Below, piece after piece: positions 3,576 through 38,240 of a stretch of 38,240 nucleotides of DNA. The stretch's first letter is position 1; each line of letters starts with the position of its first letter. The DNA comes from Hyphomicrobiaceae bacterium (GTDB lineage Bacteria > Pseudomonadota > Alphaproteobacteria > Rhizobiales > HXMU1428-3): positions 1 to 38,240 of the forward strand of contig JAJFHF010000054.1 of assembly GCA_021775775.1 (NCBI GenBank). Reading direction: 5' to 3'. The notes below the pieces were generated by a model. The model saw only the letters and a list, made by a program, of their open reading frames with translations, was not told where the DNA came from and did no database searches. The position numbers and the translations under genes were made by a program.

Positions 3576-4910
3576 TCATTTTGAGGTGAAATACGTAAAA
3601 ACAACCCCGACAATAAGAGCAATCCCTAACATTCCAAATAGGAAATCAAAAATCGACTTAACACCACCCTGCCCAACAGAAGCAATTTTCTTTTGTCTAT
3701 CCGGCTCCGTTAATGTCTCATCTTCTTCAACCTCAGTAAAAATAGACGCCATCGTATTAATAAGCATACGTTTACCCCATAGGCCTGAAATAATATGCAG
3801 GCCAATGATCATACAAAGCCCAATATAAAAAGTTATATCATTTGAAAAAGAACCATCACCAAGATGCTTGAAGCCAAAACCGGCAAAAAACAGGGCAATA
3901 ACATATATGATCCCAAATAATGCCTCCATCCCATCATTACAGCGCCATGCCAACCAAAGCGGTGCCCCTAAAAATGCAGCCCAGCTCCATGAAATTTGAA
4001 ATGATCGATCCGCGTTTTTGCTATCATTGTAATAGCGCTCATAAACAGTGTCATTTTTTCCAATATAACTAAGGAAATCATCTTCAACCAATAAGGGAAA
4101 CCCTCTTGCATCATAATAGGGTCTCTTCCCACCAAATGTCGGGTCTCTCCAAGACCCTCTTATAATCTCAAGCAAGGCGTCAGCTTCCTCATCTGACAAT
4201 TGATCGTAGACACGCCGGTCTGCCTGCGTCCAGCCAAATTCTTGATTAAGATAGCTAAGCACATTTAATTTATCAGACTGTTTGTCTCTCGTTGTTGATG
4301 GACCATGCAAAACCGCGCTTGCTATGGCTTGCAAAATTTCATATTCCGCATATTTACTGGTCTCAAAGGGGCTTTCTCGTAATTCATTGATAAAACTTTG
4401 CCATTTTCCAAGGTCCCATCCCCCCCAAGGCCCAATAAGCGTCTCTATTTTTTCACGGATGTGCTCATCTGAAAAATCACGATCATCTACAGATTGATTA
4501 TGATCATCTTCTTTTTGATCAAAAAGTATATCCTCATCAATAGTAATCTGATCAACTGTCTCTCGTTCAATACCATCAATATTTTCACGAATAGTTTCTG
4601 GAGGAAGGGATAACTCTACAGGCTCTACAAGCTCTTCCACCACGGCTGATGTTTGCTCAGTCACACTATGATTGATAGATGGCTCTAAGGTCTCACCCTC
4701 ATCAAAATCATCACTTTCATCATCAAGCTCACTATCATCATAAACATCATAAGCCCCCAACCAAATGGCCTGATCTCTCGCTTCACGTAATTTTTGAAAC
4801 CCAAGAGGGTCCTCGCCAGGCCTGATAAGCTTTAATTCTTTGGCATAAGCACGCTTAATCTCCCGCTCATCATCAGTTGGTTCGATTTTTAAAATCTCCC
4901 AGACTGTCAC
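3576..4910 (-). CDS. Membrane-anchored J-domain-like co-chaperone, probable partner of HscC
   Basis: The 444-residue protein opens with a short J-like domain (residues 1-46: VWEILKIEPTDDEREIKRAYA, then KLREARD), as in the DjlB/DjlC proteins that work with HscC in E. coli. The HPD tripeptide is replaced by RPGED. A long acidic, low-complexity linker (about 55-150) and a soluble central region follow. The C-terminal part holds about four hydrophobic segments (about 307-323, 328-346, 360-378, 418-440), beginning with ISWSWAAFLGAPLWLAW, which resembles DUF2628-type membrane domains. The start is GTG, supported by AAAGGAA seven nt upstream. It lies 37 nt after hscC on the same strand, so co-expression is likely. 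The J assignment rests on the N-terminus and on gene context. Confidence 0.8.
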   Translation of the reverse strand: MTVWEILKIEPTDDEREIKRAYAKELKLIRPGEDPLGFQKLREARDQAIWLGAYDVYDDSELDDESDDFDEGETLEPSINHSVTEQTSAVVEELVEPVELSLPPETIRENIDGIERETVDQITIDEDILFDQKEDDHNQSVDDRDFSDEHIREKIETLIGPWGGWDLGKWQSFINELRESPFETSKYAEYEILQAIASAVLHGPSTTRDKQSDKLNVLSYLNQEFGWTQADRRVYDQLSDEEADALLEIIRGSWRDPTFGGKRPYYDARGFPLLVEDDFLSYIGKNDTVYERYYNDSKNADRSFQISWSWAAFLGAPLWLAWRCNDGMEALFGIIYVIALFFAGFGFKHLGDGSFSNDITFYIGLCMIIGLHIISGLWGKRMLINTMASIFTEVEEDETLTEPDRQKKIASVGQGGVKSIFDFLFGMLGIALIVGVVFTYFTSK

Positions 4911-9893: not shown

Positions 9894-10910
9894 CTAATCC
9901 AGCATTTCTGCTTCACTATCATAGCGAAAAGGATCAAACCCTAACGCCTCCCAGCTCTCTTGCATATGATCAGGCAACGGGGCGGTGAGGTCTAAAGTCC
10001 CTCCCCTGGGATGAGGGATGACCAGCCGGCGCGCATGCAGATGCAACTTATCGGCAAACCCCTCAATGCGTTGCTCCTCTTCAATCTCCATATATTTAGG
10101 ATCACCCATGATAGGCGTGCCCAGCTGCGCCATATGCACGCGCAATTGATGGGTGCGCCCTGTCACAGGCTTAAGCGAGACCCAGGCCAAGCGCTGGCCT
10201 GCCTGCTCAACCACACTATAATAAGAGTGTGAATGTTGAGCGCCGGGCGTCCCTTGCCCCACAACCTGAACAATCTCACCAATCGGGCTGGGCTGTTTCA
10301 TTAAAAAGGCAGATATCTCCCCTTGCAACGGCCGCGGCACCCCATGTGTTAACGCCCAATATATTTTGCGTGCGGATCGTGTACGAAAGACAGCGCCCAT
10401 TTTAGAGGCCGCTTTACGAGACTTAGCAATTAACAAAAGGCCAGAGGTATCGCGGTCCAATCGATGCACCAAACGTGGGCGCTCACCATTAAATTCAAAA
10501 GCACCCAGCATTCCATCAATATGGCGGTTGGTTTTAGAACCACCTTGCACGGCCAAACCAGAAGGCTTGTTCAACACCATCAAATCATCATCTTCATGCA
10601 AGATAAGATCTGTGATCTCTTTAATGTGGGCCTCTTTGGCCAAGCTAGGCCGGCGCTCTTTCGCCCCTGTTGTTTTACGCCCAACATTATCTGTCTGCGC
10701 ATTTTGTACAAATGGGGGGATCCGCAACATTTGGCCAGCCTCTAAACGCGTGCTGGTTTTCGCCCGTTTACCATCAACCCGGATTTGCCCTGTTCGCAAA
10801 AGTTTCTGCAATTTCCCAAATTGAAGCTCAGGGTGATGGTCTTTAAACCACCGATCAAGCCGAAGGTCATCATCCTTGTCTTCAACTTTAATAGTCTCAA
10901 CTTTGCTCAC
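9894..10910 (-). CDS. rluC: RluC/RluD-family 23S rRNA pseudouridine synthase
   Basis: The enzyme isomerises uridines in 23S rRNA. It has an N-terminal S4 RNA-binding domain (LRLDRWFKDHHP, then GQIRVDGKRAK) and a PseudoU_synth_2 catalytic domain with RLVHRLDRDTSG, whose Asp (second D of HRLDRD or its neighbour in the motif) is the family nucleophile. GRTHQLRVHMAQLG and GDPKY follow. The ORF track extends to 10970, but the true start is most likely the GTG at 10910: GGAGG lies six nt upstream and the GTG overlaps the crcB stop as GTGA. This gives 338 residues. Context and sequence favour RluC over RluD, but the target uridines are not provable here. Confidence 0.92.
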   Translation of the reverse strand: MSKVETIKVEDKDDDLRLDRWFKDHHPELQFGKLQKLLRTGQIRVDGKRAKTSTRLEAGQMLRIPPFVQNAQTDNVGRKTTGAKERRPSLAKEAHIKEITDLILHEDDDLMVLNKPSGLAVQGGSKTNRHIDGMLGAFEFNGERPRLVHRLDRDTSGLLLIAKSRKAASKMGAVFRTRSARKIYWALTHGVPRPLQGEISAFLMKQPSPIGEIVQVVGQGTPGAQHSHSYYSVVEQAGQRLAWVSLKPVTGRTHQLRVHMAQLGTPIMGDPKYMEIEEEQRIEGFADKLHLHARRLVIPHPRGGTLDLTAPLPDHMQESWEALGFDPFRYDSEAEMLD

Positions 10911-11296
10911 AAAACGCCTCCAGTTAAAAGGCGTCCAAACCACAGCCCTATAAAAATACCAACCACACAAATTATAACACTAGCCAAAGAATAGCCAAAC
11001 GCGACAGACCATTGCCCACGCTCAATCATATTTGCCACTTCGAGAGAAAAAGCAGAGAATGTCGTAAACCCACCTAACACGCCAGTGGCAAAAAAAGTAC
11101 GCATCTCCAAAGACCCATTCAGCTTCGTTGCCAACATATGAATGAAAAGCCCCATAAGAAAGGCCCCCACCACATTGACAACAAATGTTCCATAAGGAAA
11201 GCCCAAACCAAAAACACGAAGCGCAATACCGCCAACAAGGTAGCGCCCACTCGCACCAAAAGCCCCGCCTAGCGCCGCCAACACCAAAAGTTTCAT
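10907..11296 (-). CDS. crcB: Fluoride exporter CrcB (Fluc)
   Basis: CrcB forms a dual-topology dimeric fluoride channel in the inner membrane. The 129-residue protein has four hydrophobic helices and the family motifs GAFGASGRYLVG near the N-terminus, YGTFVVNVVGAF (conserved Asn), and GVLGGFTTFSAFSLE with the pore-lining Phe and Thr residues. One copy is present, as expected for a homodimeric type. Its stop overlaps the start of rluC as GTGA, so the two are translationally coupled. No fluoride riboswitch is apparent in the 34-nt gap upstream, so expression probably depends on genes further upstream. Confidence 0.94.
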   Translation of the reverse strand: MKLLVLAALGGAFGASGRYLVGGIALRVFGLGFPYGTFVVNVVGAFLMGLFIHMLATKLNGSLEMRTFFATGVLGGFTTFSAFSLEVANMIERGQWSVAFGYSLASVIICVVGIFIGLWFGRLLTGGVL

Positions 11297-11330: not shown

Positions 11331-11555
11331 TTAAGAGCGACAAAACAACCAGCCCAAAATAGCGCCAACAAACCATCCAACGATTATACAAACAACAATA
11401 GTCGCAAGATAAACCAAACCGTGCTGCATCATAACATCTTGTGAGCTATCAAAACTGCGCGTAGCAATAAAGCCATTACTAACATAGGATCCAAAATAAA
11501 AAATCCCGATCAAAGCTCCGATTAAGGCACCTATAAATTTCAATGTCTGTTTCAT
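11331..11555 (-). CDS. Small two-TM membrane protein overlapping the Tae4-like gene
   Basis: The 74-residue protein is almost entirely two hydrophobic helices: about residues 5-26 (TLKFIGALIGALIGIFYFG) and 45-70 (LVYLATIVVCIIVGWFVGA). A polar loop of about 20 residues (RSFDSSQDVMMQ) lies between them. Lysines before helix 1 suggest both ends in the cytoplasm and the loop in the periplasm. The ORF track starts at 11573, but the ATG at 11555 has GGGAGG upstream and overlaps the stop of the amidase gene as ATGA. I do not recognise the family. Its linkage to a peptidoglycan amidase makes immunity, release or anchoring possible roles, all inference; it is unlike the soluble periplasmic Tai4 immunity proteins. 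Confidence 0.75.
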   Translation of the reverse strand: MKQTLKFIGALIGALIGIFYFGSYVSNGFIATRSFDSSQDVMMQHGLVYLATIVVCIIVGWFVGAILGWLFCRS

Positions 11556-12055
11556 TTTACCTCCCAAAACCATATCTCTGTGGCTTTGTCATAGCCGCCA
11601 TAATAGCCAGCCCAAAAGAACCAGTTGATTAACCAAGCAGACGCTGTACGCGACCCATTCCACACATCAATATGATCGCCCGATGGGTGTTTTTTTTCAC
11701 CACTACGAAACCAATAATTACGAATAAGCACAATTCCAGTTCGTCCAAAAAGATCACGGTAATAAGTTTTTGGATTTTTAAAAATTTCCACTTTTCCTAT
11801 ACCAGGAATGCCAGCTCTATTAATGCCCCTAGCTAACTCTTCAGCCCGAATATAGTGCATAGCTTCTTTAGGATGGGCCCGGCAAGTCACAAGCCCTTTG
11901 GGCATTTGATTATAAGTAACACCAGCCCCACTTAAAGCAACGCTCATACGAATAGCACATTGATTTCGATAAGTCGGATATCCCTTCAAACGACATGGAT
12001 AACGCTCACTTCTATTGAGGGGATGGCTTGCCCACAAATCTTTAAACTTAATCAT
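11552..12055 (-). CDS. tae4: Tae4-like peptidoglycan amidase (type VI effector family)
   Basis: Tae4 effectors are NlpC/P60-like cysteine amidases that cut the D-Glu-mDAP bond of peptidoglycan stems. The 167-residue protein begins IKFKDLWASHP and has the catalytic cysteine motif NQCAIRMSVAL (Cys33), a middle YIRAEELA helix, TGIVLIRNYW, and the catalytic histidine motif GDHIDVWNGSR (His128). It ends in the aromatic EIWFWEV. This order matches Tae4 closely. It has no signal peptide, consistent with secretion-system delivery rather than Sec export. No type VI genes are in this window. The gene overlaps a two-TM membrane protein gene by ATGA and sits between rarA and crcB, a housekeeping position. 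The family call is strong; use as an antibacterial effector is inferred. Confidence 0.88.
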   Translation of the reverse strand: MIKFKDLWASHPLNRSERYPCRLKGYPTYRNQCAIRMSVALSGAGVTYNQMPKGLVTCRAHPKEAMHYIRAEELARGINRAGIPGIGKVEIFKNPKTYYRDLFGRTGIVLIRNYWFRSGEKKHPSGDHIDVWNGSRTASAWLINWFFWAGYYGGYDKATEIWFWEVK

Positions 12056-12137: not shown

Positions 12138-13454
12138 TCACTCCAAATCAGGGCGTCCCGCTCGTAAACTGGCCCAATAGTTAAGACGTTTTTTAATATC
12201 ACGCTCAAATCCGCGCTCTACAGGCTGATAATAGCTAGGGCGCTCACCAAATTCCTCAGGAAAATAACTCTGACCAGAAAACGCCTCAGGCGTATCATGA
12301 TCATAAATATATCCCTCACCATATCCTTGATCTGCCATCAAATTAGTGGGGGCATTTAGAATATGCTTTGGCGGCCAATAGCTCCCCTGATCTTTAGCTG
12401 CGGCCCGCACCGCATTATACGCCGTATAAGCAGCATTAGATTTAGGCGCACAAGCAATATAAATCAGCGCTTGCGCCAACGCCAACTCACCCTCAGGTGT
12501 GCCAAGCAATTGATAAGCGTCTTTAGCCGCATTGGCTTGTACCAAGGCTTGCGGGTCAGCCATACCCACCTCTTCAACCGCCATTCGAACCAACCGCCGT
12601 GCTATATAGATCGGATCTTCGCCCCCTTCCAACATCCGCGCAAACCAATAAAGGGCAGCGTCAGGATCCGACCCCCGCACTGATTTATGCAACGCAGAGA
12701 TCAAACTATAATGCCCGTCCCCCGCCTTATCATAGCTAGGCCGGCGCCTGTGCAAAATGGAAGTTAAATCGTCAGCCTCAAGCATCTGCCCAAATTCAAC
12801 ACTAGAGAAAATTTCCTCAGCCATATTCAAAATCATCCGCCCATCACCATCGGCTAGGGCAATCATATCCGCGCGCGCATCAGCTGTAAGCGGCAAAGGG
12901 CGGTTCATTTCAGTTTCCGCCCGCAACAAAAGTTGCTCTAAATCATAATTTTTCAGTCTCTCAAATGTCAGCACTTGCGCGCGTGACAACAAAGCATTAT
13001 TCAACTCAAAAGAAGGGTTCTCAGTAGTGGCCCCAATTAAAACAATCGTGCCATCTTCCATCACGGGCAAAAAACTATCTTGTTGCGCTTTGTTAAACCG
13101 ATGGATCTCATCAATAAACAACAACGTACCGCGCCCTTCTCTACGCCGCGCGCGCGCCATATCAAAAGCTTGTTTTAAATCTTTAACCCCGGAAAAAACC
13201 GCAGATAATTGCTCAAAATACAAATCGGTTTCAGATGCCAAAGCCTGGGCCAAAGTGGTCTTGCCAGTCCCAGGAGGCCCCCACAAAATAAGGTTGGATA
13301 AACGCCCACTTTTCACCATCCGCAATAAGATGCTATCAGAGCCTAGGATATGAGATTGCCCAGCGATCTCGCTCAATGATTTCGGCCGCAAACGATCCGC
13401 TAACGGGCGGTGGACATTTTCAGCCAAACCTGATTTATCAAATAAGTCAGCCAT
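12138..13454 (-). CDS. rarA: Replication-associated recombination protein RarA (MgsA), AAA+ ATPase
   Basis: RarA is a clamp-loader-like ATPase acting at stalled replication forks. The 438-residue protein begins with the RarA hallmark RPLADRLRPKSLSEIAGQ. It has Walker A GPPGTGKT at residues 59-66, Walker B LLFIDEIHRF at 111-120, and sensor 1 in LIGATTENPSFELN. The C-terminal tetramerisation domain includes ISALHKSVRGSDPDAALYW and the RLVRMAVEEVG segment. The length is typical. The start ATG lies 55 nt downstream of the protease gene's stop, and only a weak GAG precedes it. The degP-rarA order is common in Rhizobiales-like genomes. Confidence 0.96.
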   Translation of the reverse strand: MADLFDKSGLAENVHRPLADRLRPKSLSEIAGQSHILGSDSILLRMVKSGRLSNLILWGPPGTGKTTLAQALASETDLYFEQLSAVFSGVKDLKQAFDMARARRREGRGTLLFIDEIHRFNKAQQDSFLPVMEDGTIVLIGATTENPSFELNNALLSRAQVLTFERLKNYDLEQLLLRAETEMNRPLPLTADARADMIALADGDGRMILNMAEEIFSSVEFGQMLEADDLTSILHRRRPSYDKAGDGHYSLISALHKSVRGSDPDAALYWFARMLEGGEDPIYIARRLVRMAVEEVGMADPQALVQANAAKDAYQLLGTPEGELALAQALIYIACAPKSNAAYTAYNAVRAAAKDQGSYWPPKHILNAPTNLMADQGYGEGYIYDHDTPEAFSGQSYFPEEFGERPSYYQPVERGFERDIKKRLNYWASLRAGRPDLE

Positions 13455-36777: not shown

Positions 36778-37374
36778 CTATTGGCGAAACATTTCTGTTT
36801 CAATAATGATATCAACCTTATCACTCACAGCGGGTGCAAATTTACCCAATCCAAAATCTGACCGCTTTACACTTGCTTTGGCTGAAAAGGCCGCGACATA
36901 GACATTCTTCATTTTGGGATTAAAAGCACCCATTGGATGCGGCTGGTCAATAATATAGGTTACATCTAAAGTGACCGGTTTGGTCTTCCCTTTGATGGTT
37001 AAATCACCAAGCACTTTAAATTTTTTATCCGTAATTTTTTTAACATTCGTGCTTTTAAACTTTAGCGTTGGATATTTGGAAACATCAAAAAAGTCTTTTC
37101 CCTGCAAATGAGAATCAAAAGTCTTGATACCTGAATCAATACTTTTAGCGACAATATTGACATCAATCAAACTCTTCTCAGGAGCCGCTTTATTCATTTT
37201 CACTATACCATTTAGCTTGTTAAATTGCCCATAAGCACGAGACATCCCCAAATGCTGATAAGAAAACAAAACCTCTGTATGGTTAGGGTCAAACTTATAA
37301 GTCTCAGCATCAGCCAAAACCACTTGCGTAGAAAACCCAAAAATAAGCGTGGCGATAGCAAATATTTTTTTCAT
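36778..37374 (-). CDS. Secreted YceI-family protein
   Basis: YceI proteins are periplasmic lipocalin-like barrels that bind long isoprenoids such as polyprenyl chains. The 198-residue product has a signal peptide (MKKIFAIATLIFGF to VVLADA) and one YceI domain: YKFDPNHTEVLFSYQHLGMSRAYGQFN, SHLQGKDFFDVSKYPTLKFKS, GDLTIKGKTKPVTLDVTY and FSAKASVKRSDFGLGKFAP. The ORF track begins 19 codons upstream; the ATG at 37374 has GGAG seven nt before it and starts the signal peptide. It follows the b561-YceI fusion gene by 78 nt, echoing the yceJ-yceI pair of E. coli. It converges with the glycosyltransferase gene with 24 nt between the stops. Confidence 0.93.
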   Translation of the reverse strand: MKKIFAIATLIFGFSTQVVLADAETYKFDPNHTEVLFSYQHLGMSRAYGQFNKLNGIVKMNKAAPEKSLIDVNIVAKSIDSGIKTFDSHLQGKDFFDVSKYPTLKFKSTNVKKITDKKFKVLGDLTIKGKTKPVTLDVTYIIDQPHPMGAFNPKMKNVYVAAFSAKASVKRSDFGLGKFAPAVSDKVDIIIETEMFRQ

Positions 37375-37452
37375 AAAAAAACTCCAATTCGATATGTTAC
37401 AGGTAAAGAAAAGAAAACCATTCAGCTTCACTATTGATCAAGTTCGTTATAA

Positions 37453-38240
37453 TTATTGCTCTTTTATGGCGGTCACATCAATTGTTAGTGATACCTCATC
37501 TAAAAGCGTATCAGTACTAGCCCATTCACCCTGGCCAATCCCATAAGCAGTTCGGCTAATTACGCCCTGCCCCTTGGCTGTTATGCGCCCAGTTGATGTT
37601 TTAATAATGGTGAGATCAACCGTTAAAGGCTTCGCGATATCTTTAATCACCAGCTGTCCTTTTAAGCGATAAAGATCTCCGCCAAGCTTTTCAAAGCCTT
37701 TCGCCCAAAAAACAGCCCTAGGGTGAGCGCTGGCATCAAACCAATCAGACGCCAGCAACGTTTGATCGATAAGTTGAGTGCCAAACGATAGTGATGCAAT
37801 ATCAATGATAACCTCAATGTTTGCTAACTCTGGCGCAAGAGGGTCAAACGTCAAAGCCTTCAATTGAAAGCTTTTAAAAACCCCGGTGGTCCCGGCCTCT
37901 TTTTGTGTCGCTGTAAATTCAAGTTTGCTGCTATCACGAACAATCTGCCATCCATCTTCAGACACACCGGCCCTATCAATAGCTTGCCCTTCATCACCAT
38001 CAGCCCTTTTAGGCACTGTCTGCTCACCATTTTGTATAAGAACTGGCGCGCCGTTAAACCACAGCGAATTCAGCGCAAACCCAACAGCCCCTAACAAGCT
38101 ACAAACAATTAAAACGATGTGGAATTTAGTTGGCTTCATGCGCTCTAACACATTGTCACGCCACAAAACACGATGCACAACAACCGCGCCGACATGCCCC
38201 AAAAGCAAAACAAACAACAAAATAGCGCCAATCTCATGCA
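37453..38240 (-). CDS. Cytochrome b561-YceI fusion protein, 5'-truncated by the window
   Basis: The ORF track starts at a TTG (38220), but the frame is open to the window edge, so the gene begins outside. The visible N-terminal part (HEIGAI then LLFVLLLGHVGAVVVHRVLWRDNVLERM) is the last helix of a cytochrome b561 domain, whose His residues would bind heme. A further membrane helix follows (HIVLIVCSLLGAVGFAL). After a linker comes a C-terminal periplasmic YceI-like domain (WQIVRDSSKLEFTATQKEAGTTGVF, LASDWFDASAHPRAVFWAKGF, GQLVIKDIAKPLTVDLTI, SRTAYGIGQGEW). The b561 half usually moves electrons from quinol; the partner substrate is unknown. Fusions of this kind are known in proteobacteria. Confidence 0.87.
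   Translation of the reverse strand, partial: HEIGAILLFVLLLGHVGAVVVHRVLWRDNVLERMKPTKFHIVLIVCSLLGAVGFALNSLWFNGAPVLIQNGEQTVPKRADGDEGQAIDRAGVSEDGWQIVRDSSKLEFTATQKEAGTTGVFKSFQLKALTFDPLAPELANIEVIIDIASLSFGTQLIDQTLLASDWFDASAHPRAVFWAKGFEKLGGDLYRLKGQLVIKDIAKPLTVDLTIIKTSTGRITAKGQGVISRTAYGIGQGEWASTDTLLDEVSLTIDVTAIKEQ

Follow-up and report, generated by a model that had tools for sequence, protein, structure and literature searches.

The known role of Tae4 enzymes is that of injected weapons, matched by soluble antidotes. Salmonella Tae4 halts growth when present in the periplasm, and Salmonella Tai4, its antidote, is a soluble, exported, all-helical dimer that inserts a loop into the Tae4 active site (PMC3695027). 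Two triad geometries are known among Tae4 enzymes, one of which, the H-x-D form, occurs in Serratia and Agrobacterium (PMC6277958). At the locus described here, by contrast, a Tae4-type amidase with a conserved active site is found in genomes that lack the injection machine (as judged by TssC and TssF), accompanied by an obligate membrane partner of an apparently new type, and the pair seems to have been fixed in place over deep time.

The stretch of DNA that we analyzed (the window; 38,240 nucleotides) carries, on its reverse strand, a gene for a 167-aa Tae4-family peptidoglycan amidase (11552..12055), so assigned by Pfam PF14113, by its PDB relatives, and by its triad type, and a gene for a predicted small two-helix inner-membrane protein of 74 aa (11331..11555), recognized by its adjacency to the amidase and its AlphaFold hairpin. 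The stop of the former and the start of the latter overlap on that strand as ATGA (11552..11555), an arrangement that points to translational coupling, and a GGGAGG Shine-Dalgarno-like site for the small gene lies inside the 3' end of the amidase gene (11560..11565, same strand), 4 nt upstream of the small-gene ATG. The conserved flanks of the insertion site, also on the reverse strand, are rarA (mgsA; 12138..13454; Pfam MgsA_C, E 9.2e-66, and synteny) and crcB (10907..11296; Pfam CRCB, E 8.8e-26). An earlier note on this DNA had described the two open reading frames, the motifs NQCAIRMS and GDHIDVWNG, the ATGA overlap, and the GGGAGG site, all of which are present in the sequence as stated, and its placement of the pair between rarA and crcB is borne out by the Pfam matches of the flanking genes. 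The GGGAGG site also precedes the small gene in genus mates, and the 4-nt overlap recurs in family codes f3, f19, f26, f31, f33, and f46 as well as in the prophage, plasmid, and Pseudocolwellia pairs discussed below. A chance open reading frame was excluded by the genus-mate orthologues, by dN/dS, and by the conserved pairing. Elsewhere in the window, open reading frames of 171 and 444 aa (763-1278 and 3576-4910), with no Pfam match at 1e-6, adjoin carboxylase and HSP70-like genes, and two YceI-family genes stand side by side at 36778-38220.

The amidase matched PF14113 (Tae4) with an E value of 2.5e-22 and 79.7 bits, against a curated cutoff of 27. Its triad, composed of Cys33 (within NQCAIRMS), His128 (within GDHIDVWNG), and Asp130, is of the H-x-D Serratia/Agrobacterium type, and Serratia Ssp1 and Agrobacterium Tae4 were the closest solved structures by both profile search and fold. 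The structural model (pLDDT 87.6) adopts a papain-like fold, with a Foldseek E value of 9e-7 to Ssp1. Judged by profile, triad, and fold, the protein is a member of the Tae4 family, as the earlier note had proposed, and it is predicted to be a gamma-D-Glu-mDAP DL-endopeptidase, with its cleavage specificity taken from that of the family.

In the AlphaFold model (pLDDT 91.6), the small protein folds into two long helices, spanning residues 2-31 and 38-71, that are packed as a tight hairpin around a turn of about 6 residues, a topology in which the N and C termini would both lie inside. The two-helix membrane protein that had been proposed is upheld by this model, but the periplasmic loop proposed along with it is not; the turn leaves no sizeable loop. 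Searches of Pfam and NCBIfam gave no match near a cutoff and no curated family, in line with the view that the protein was unrecognized and lay outside the known immunity families. It had no match to the Tai4 immunity family PF16695, being instead a predicted membrane hairpin; a genome-wide Tai4 search was blank everywhere, in the controls as well, and so says nothing either way. No match was found to holin families in Pfam, PHROG, or BFVD, and nothing in the viral fold library fell under an E value of 1. Assignment to a known family was rejected after matches, such as that to Colicin_V/CvpA, proved subthreshold and inconsistent. The weak Colicin_V/CvpA match was seen for 11 of 30 small proteins (alignment A2; best E 8e-5), a resemblance that may reflect helix composition only. 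As far as sequence can tell, the small protein is a dedicated amidase partner of a new type.

The amidase is present in 7 of the 8 genomes that share the genus code of the window, and in 6 of 7 genus mates the orthologue is 76 to 83% identical. Scanning GTDB contigs returned 56 amidase loci, some 50 of which come from Hyphomicrobiales relatives at roughly 43 to 83% identity; the usual gene order in relatives is rarA, amidase, small gene, crcB, and rluC, with degP upstream of rarA wherever the contigs extend that far. Among 298 genomes of the order, 25 encode a window-type amidase and 7 encode other Tae4 proteins. A profile of the small protein found it in 24 of the 25, the last being cut by a contig end, and all 24 genuine matches directly follow the amidase. 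That search detected no small protein without an amidase in the remaining 273 genomes, all other matches being marginal (E 6e-4 to 7e-3) and inside longer unrelated frames; the widespread occurrence of the small protein on its own, which the earlier note had named as the outcome to look for, was thus not seen in the 298 genomes. When 94 amidase loci were inspected, every untruncated one (93/93) had a same-strand small protein immediately downstream, which supports the co-inheritance that the note had envisaged. Three loci (L017, L044, and L057) have flanks without rarA and crcB, yet the amidase and the small gene are together there as well.

Carriers span 11 family codes (f1, f2, f3, f10, f17, f19, f26, f31, f33, f39, and f46), whereas in most of the noncarrier families in which crcB was found it lies 6 to 440 bp after rarA, with the amidase absent between them. 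The Hyphomicrobiales amidases form one clade (support 100/99), and on a tree of RarA and RluC some 6 changes are required to explain where the pair occurs, of which at least 4 are forced. This pattern is most simply read as a single early gain at one site, followed by repeated loss; transfer of the pair by flanking recombination is a possible alternative. The amidase is dispensable, since about half of the Hyphomicrobiaceae genomes are without it (it is kept in 52 of 103). The pair is not the orphan that it had been called, being anciently fixed at rarA-crcB across the 11 family codes, and because the same site is used in all of them a mobile insertion in the window genome was rejected. The notion of a mobile two-gene module accordingly fails at this fixed site but holds in the wider family, in which prophage and plasmid pairs occur.

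The nearest relatives outside the order that have a similar partner are those of Pseudocolwellia, where the pair adjoins transposase-like genes, of Pantoea agglomerans plasmids, and of three viral contigs. In these relatives the partner gene overlaps the amidase and encodes a short protein that is predicted to have two helices (by a crude count, three hydrophobic stretches in L221), and the small proteins of the fixed and mobile pairs are homologous (hhalign, 72 columns, E 1.2e-6, probability 91). A related amidase and two-helix pair was also located in P2-like prophages. In L224 it lies between the genes for the phage portal gpQ (PF04860) and the replication protein gpA (PF05840), a cos-proximal region reported to be an anti-phage hotspot of P2-like phages (PMC9122126), and this is the one clear case of defense-hotspot placement among the relatives. 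In L226 the pair is followed closely by the genes for the FI sheath and FII tube. In L225 the gene beside the pair, which had no Pfam match, is one that we take, by its sequence, to be a D-like late tail gene. Searches of annotated phages with the window amidase or a prophage amidase gave no match, nor did a DNA-level search of E. coli genomes. One may imagine that the hairpin is a direct inhibitor or gate of a T6SS-independent Tae4, the two having formed an anti-phage self-lysis cassette that P2-like prophages spread and that was later fixed in the chromosomes of Hyphomicrobiales, becoming part of their cell physiology, a scenario that we hold to be doubtful though not implausible.

In a first amidase tree the mobile two-helix clade was sister to the fixed clade; that support was gone after the prophage rows were added, and an AU test with the two clades held together gave a p value of 0.27. 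Because the support was lost in this way, a sister relation is not claimed. The other Tae4 branches have partners that are larger membrane proteins or, in Pseudomonas and Roseibium, secreted or lipoprotein-like proteins, and from these differing partner types it appears that Tae4 partners have been replaced repeatedly. Going by the sequences collected here, membrane-type Tae4 partners are not rare, and a literature search found no paper describing them. Triads of PAAR, Tae4, and membrane-protein genes were observed on putative prophage or island ends (L230:7390-8839, L231:1389-3026, and L232-L234), with integrase-like genes nearby in several; of these, only L230 and L231 have a PAAR gene that Pfam confirmed.

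Such triads, together with membership in the Tae4 family and the presence in Pseudocolwellia of both an amidase and two-helix pair and TssC, might suggest that the window, too, encodes a genuine pair of T6SS effector and immunity protein, the latter being an integral membrane hairpin. The genomes themselves argue otherwise. TssC was found in 0 of 24 carriers, the window genome (an assembly 95.5% complete) included, compared with 5 of 6 other Tae4 carriers of the order, and TssF in 0 of 24 compared with 5 of 5, counts that are not independent trials since the genomes are related to each other. A second set of genomes gave TssC in 0 of 7 carriers and in 4 of 4 others with Tae4 relatives (Pseudocolwellia, a planctomycete, Roseibium, and Pseudomonas). 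The earlier remark that no type VI genes were in view is therefore true of the whole assembly as regards TssC and TssF, and the independence from the T6SS that it implied is supported by the absence of both from carriers and their presence in most other Tae4 genomes. No PAAR or VgrG genes were seen at the locus, and over deep time the catalytic residues have been preserved with no machine to deliver the enzyme. For the lineage of the window the T6SS explanation is disfavored, and we rate it very unlikely.

The dN/dS values among near relatives, mostly 0.02 to 0.1 for the amidase and mostly 0.01 to 0.23 for the small protein, are well below 1, with most in either gene also well under 0.2, and indicate that both genes are under purifying selection, and the evolutionary rates of the two proteins covary beyond those of RluC (residual Mantel r 0.17, p 0.002). 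Of 93 loci, 92 keep intact equivalents of Cys33 and His128. In the remaining one, L126 (G289, Hyphomicrobiaceae; L126:6881-7462), DQSAIC and GDLIDLW stand in place of the two motifs (C to S and H to L), and the amidase frame is open and the small gene intact despite the replacement of both catalytic residues; this copy is probably catalytically dead. A genome of the same genus code, G059, has lost the locus and retains 150 bp between rarA and crcB. A dead amidase beside a kept small gene, with a relative that has neither, is as expected if a toxin is disarmed before its antidote is lost. At L129 (G128 C7:636610-637098), in a genome rated 100% complete, the C terminus of the amidase is apparently frameshifted and the small gene is intact.

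These patterns also bear on the idea that the amidase is a fully domesticated enzyme of peptidoglycan remodeling or turnover, the small protein being its membrane anchor or regulator and toxin-antidote logic playing no part. The operon-like housekeeping context, the purifying selection at a fixed site, and the signal peptides found on the amidases of some lineages would suit such an enzyme. It is harder to reconcile with the fact that about half of one family does without the amidase, with a small protein that is never found without the amidase, and with the L126 lineage, in which the small gene outlasted the catalytic residues and a relative lost the locus. We consider this idea quite improbable.

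The window amidase has only 9 codons in frame between its start and the previous stop, which confirms that it has no signal peptide, as had been stated. Most amidases in our collection likewise have none; those of families f3 and f33, which are sisters in the amidase tree, have one, which would place these enzymes in the periplasm. In sequence, the f3 signal peptide is like helix 1 of the small proteins: six of them score 57 to 63, against a maximum of 43 among some 1,100 other hydrophobic windows, and 0 of 2000 shuffles scored as well; at the DNA level, where 10 of 500 shuffles did as well, the likeness is weak. These scores suggest that the f3 amidase acquired the first helix of its partner as a signal peptide. 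In L115 and L026, at 1435-1521 in each, the likeness of the f3 signal peptide is to helix 1 of the small protein next door, and TGGGAGGTC lies upstream of both start codons. The signal peptide indicates that the f3 amidase works outside the cytoplasm with the small protein still kept; the retained small protein is thus better read as an inhibitor or anchor than as a gate for export.

Lineages of this kind speak against a small protein that serves purely for export or as a holin. They bear on the proposal of a holin/endolysin-like suicide or anti-phage cassette, in which a cytoplasmic amidase would be freed by a triggered, class II holin-like gate to cause early lysis on infection. Class II holins have two helices with short ends. 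The small protein, too, is predicted to have two helices with short ends, most of the amidases are without a signal peptide, and retention is patchy (52/103 genomes in one family); the prophage relatives, moreover, occupy accessory sites, in one case exactly the gpQ-gpA hotspot (PMC9122126). On the other side, the small protein persists in lineages whose amidase, having a signal peptide of its own, needs no gate, no holin-family or viral-structure match was found, a PADLOC search for known defense systems at the pair returned no match, and defense genes are not usually fixed at one chromosomal site and held there by purifying selection. The proposal seems to us unlikely.

We lean, at slightly better than an even chance, toward a toxin-antidote-like pair that came from mobile DNA and was domesticated, the hairpin restraining or anchoring a DL-endopeptidase at the inner membrane. 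The Tae4-type papain-like amidase would cut the gamma-D-Glu-mDAP bond of peptidoglycan stems, and the small gene, translationally coupled to it, would make an inner-membrane helical hairpin as its obligate partner. The hairpin, presumably in direct contact with the amidase, most probably keeps it inactive, tethered at the membrane, or both, and so would be an antidote-like inhibitor or an anchor. An ancestor of the Hyphomicrobiales may have gained the module at rarA-crcB from mobile cassettes of Tae4 and a membrane partner in prophages and plasmids, a direction of transfer that we infer, and selection on catalysis would since have retained it in T6SS-free lineages. An enzyme with an antidote or anchor is favored by the obligate pairing, the translational coupling, and the homology to mobile cassettes, by one lineage in which catalysis was lost before the partner, and by the retention of the partner despite autonomous export. 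The domesticated cell-wall enzyme that the earlier note had offered is supported as one good reading. Counting against the domesticated pair are the want of an export signal in most lineages, that of the window included, the unsupported sisterhood of the fixed and mobile clades (AU p 0.27), the several losses or transfers needed on the RarA+RluC tree, and the absence of the amidase from about half of the Hyphomicrobiaceae genomes. As to what the cell gains, we can only guess: controlled self-lysis in response to attack by phage or on the envelope is our first, tentative choice, with peptidoglycan remodeling a somewhat shakier one; a selfish or relic toxin-antidote pair is an unlikely answer, and some other payoff less likely still.

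Compared with the described Tae4 effectors (Ssp1, 4bi3; Agrobacterium Tae4, 6ijf; Salmonella and Enterobacter Tae4), the window amidase is of the same Pfam family and papain-like fold, and it has the Cys-His-Asp triad type of the Serratia and Agrobacterium enzymes. It differs in that its genome has no T6SS (TssC/TssF) and no Tai4-like neighbor and that it sits at a fixed chromosomal site beside a membrane-hairpin partner. That partner and the Tai4 immunity proteins are both encoded beside Tae4 and are both presumed to act on it; in contrast to Salmonella Tai4, the small protein, of 74 aa, is a predicted integral membrane hairpin, and no relation between the two could be detected. Pairs of Tae4 and a larger membrane protein on Burkholderia-like elements (L138, L139, L148, and L230-L234) also have a Tae4 gene followed by a membrane-protein gene, overlapping in most, but their partner is larger, with 2 to 3 or more predicted helices, their amidase belongs to a separate branch, and in L230 and L231 a PAAR gene lies upstream. 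The prophage and plasmid pairs (L220, L221, L222, Pantoea L137, and Pseudocolwellia L058) share the gene order, the overlap, and homologous small proteins, and they differ in their mobile setting, at phage accessory sites or near transposase or integrase genes, and in an amidase about 35 to 38% identical to that of the window. In pairs of class II holin and endolysin, too, a wall hydrolase is accompanied by a membrane protein of two helices, although no holin similarity was found here.

What is known in this locus is thus the amidase family; what is new is the type of partner, the fixed setting free of a T6SS, and the relatives at a prophage hotspot. The locus makes it testable how a membrane hairpin could restrain a wall-cutting enzyme, and whether pairs built on wall-cutting amidases are an overlooked prophage cargo or type of defense. 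The dae (domesticated amidase effector) genes of ticks are eukaryotic relatives of Tae2, and, as is probable for the amidase described here, they represent domesticated Tae enzymes outside the T6SS, so that how an effector becomes a resident gene can now be asked of a bacterium as it has been of the Tae2-type genes in ticks.
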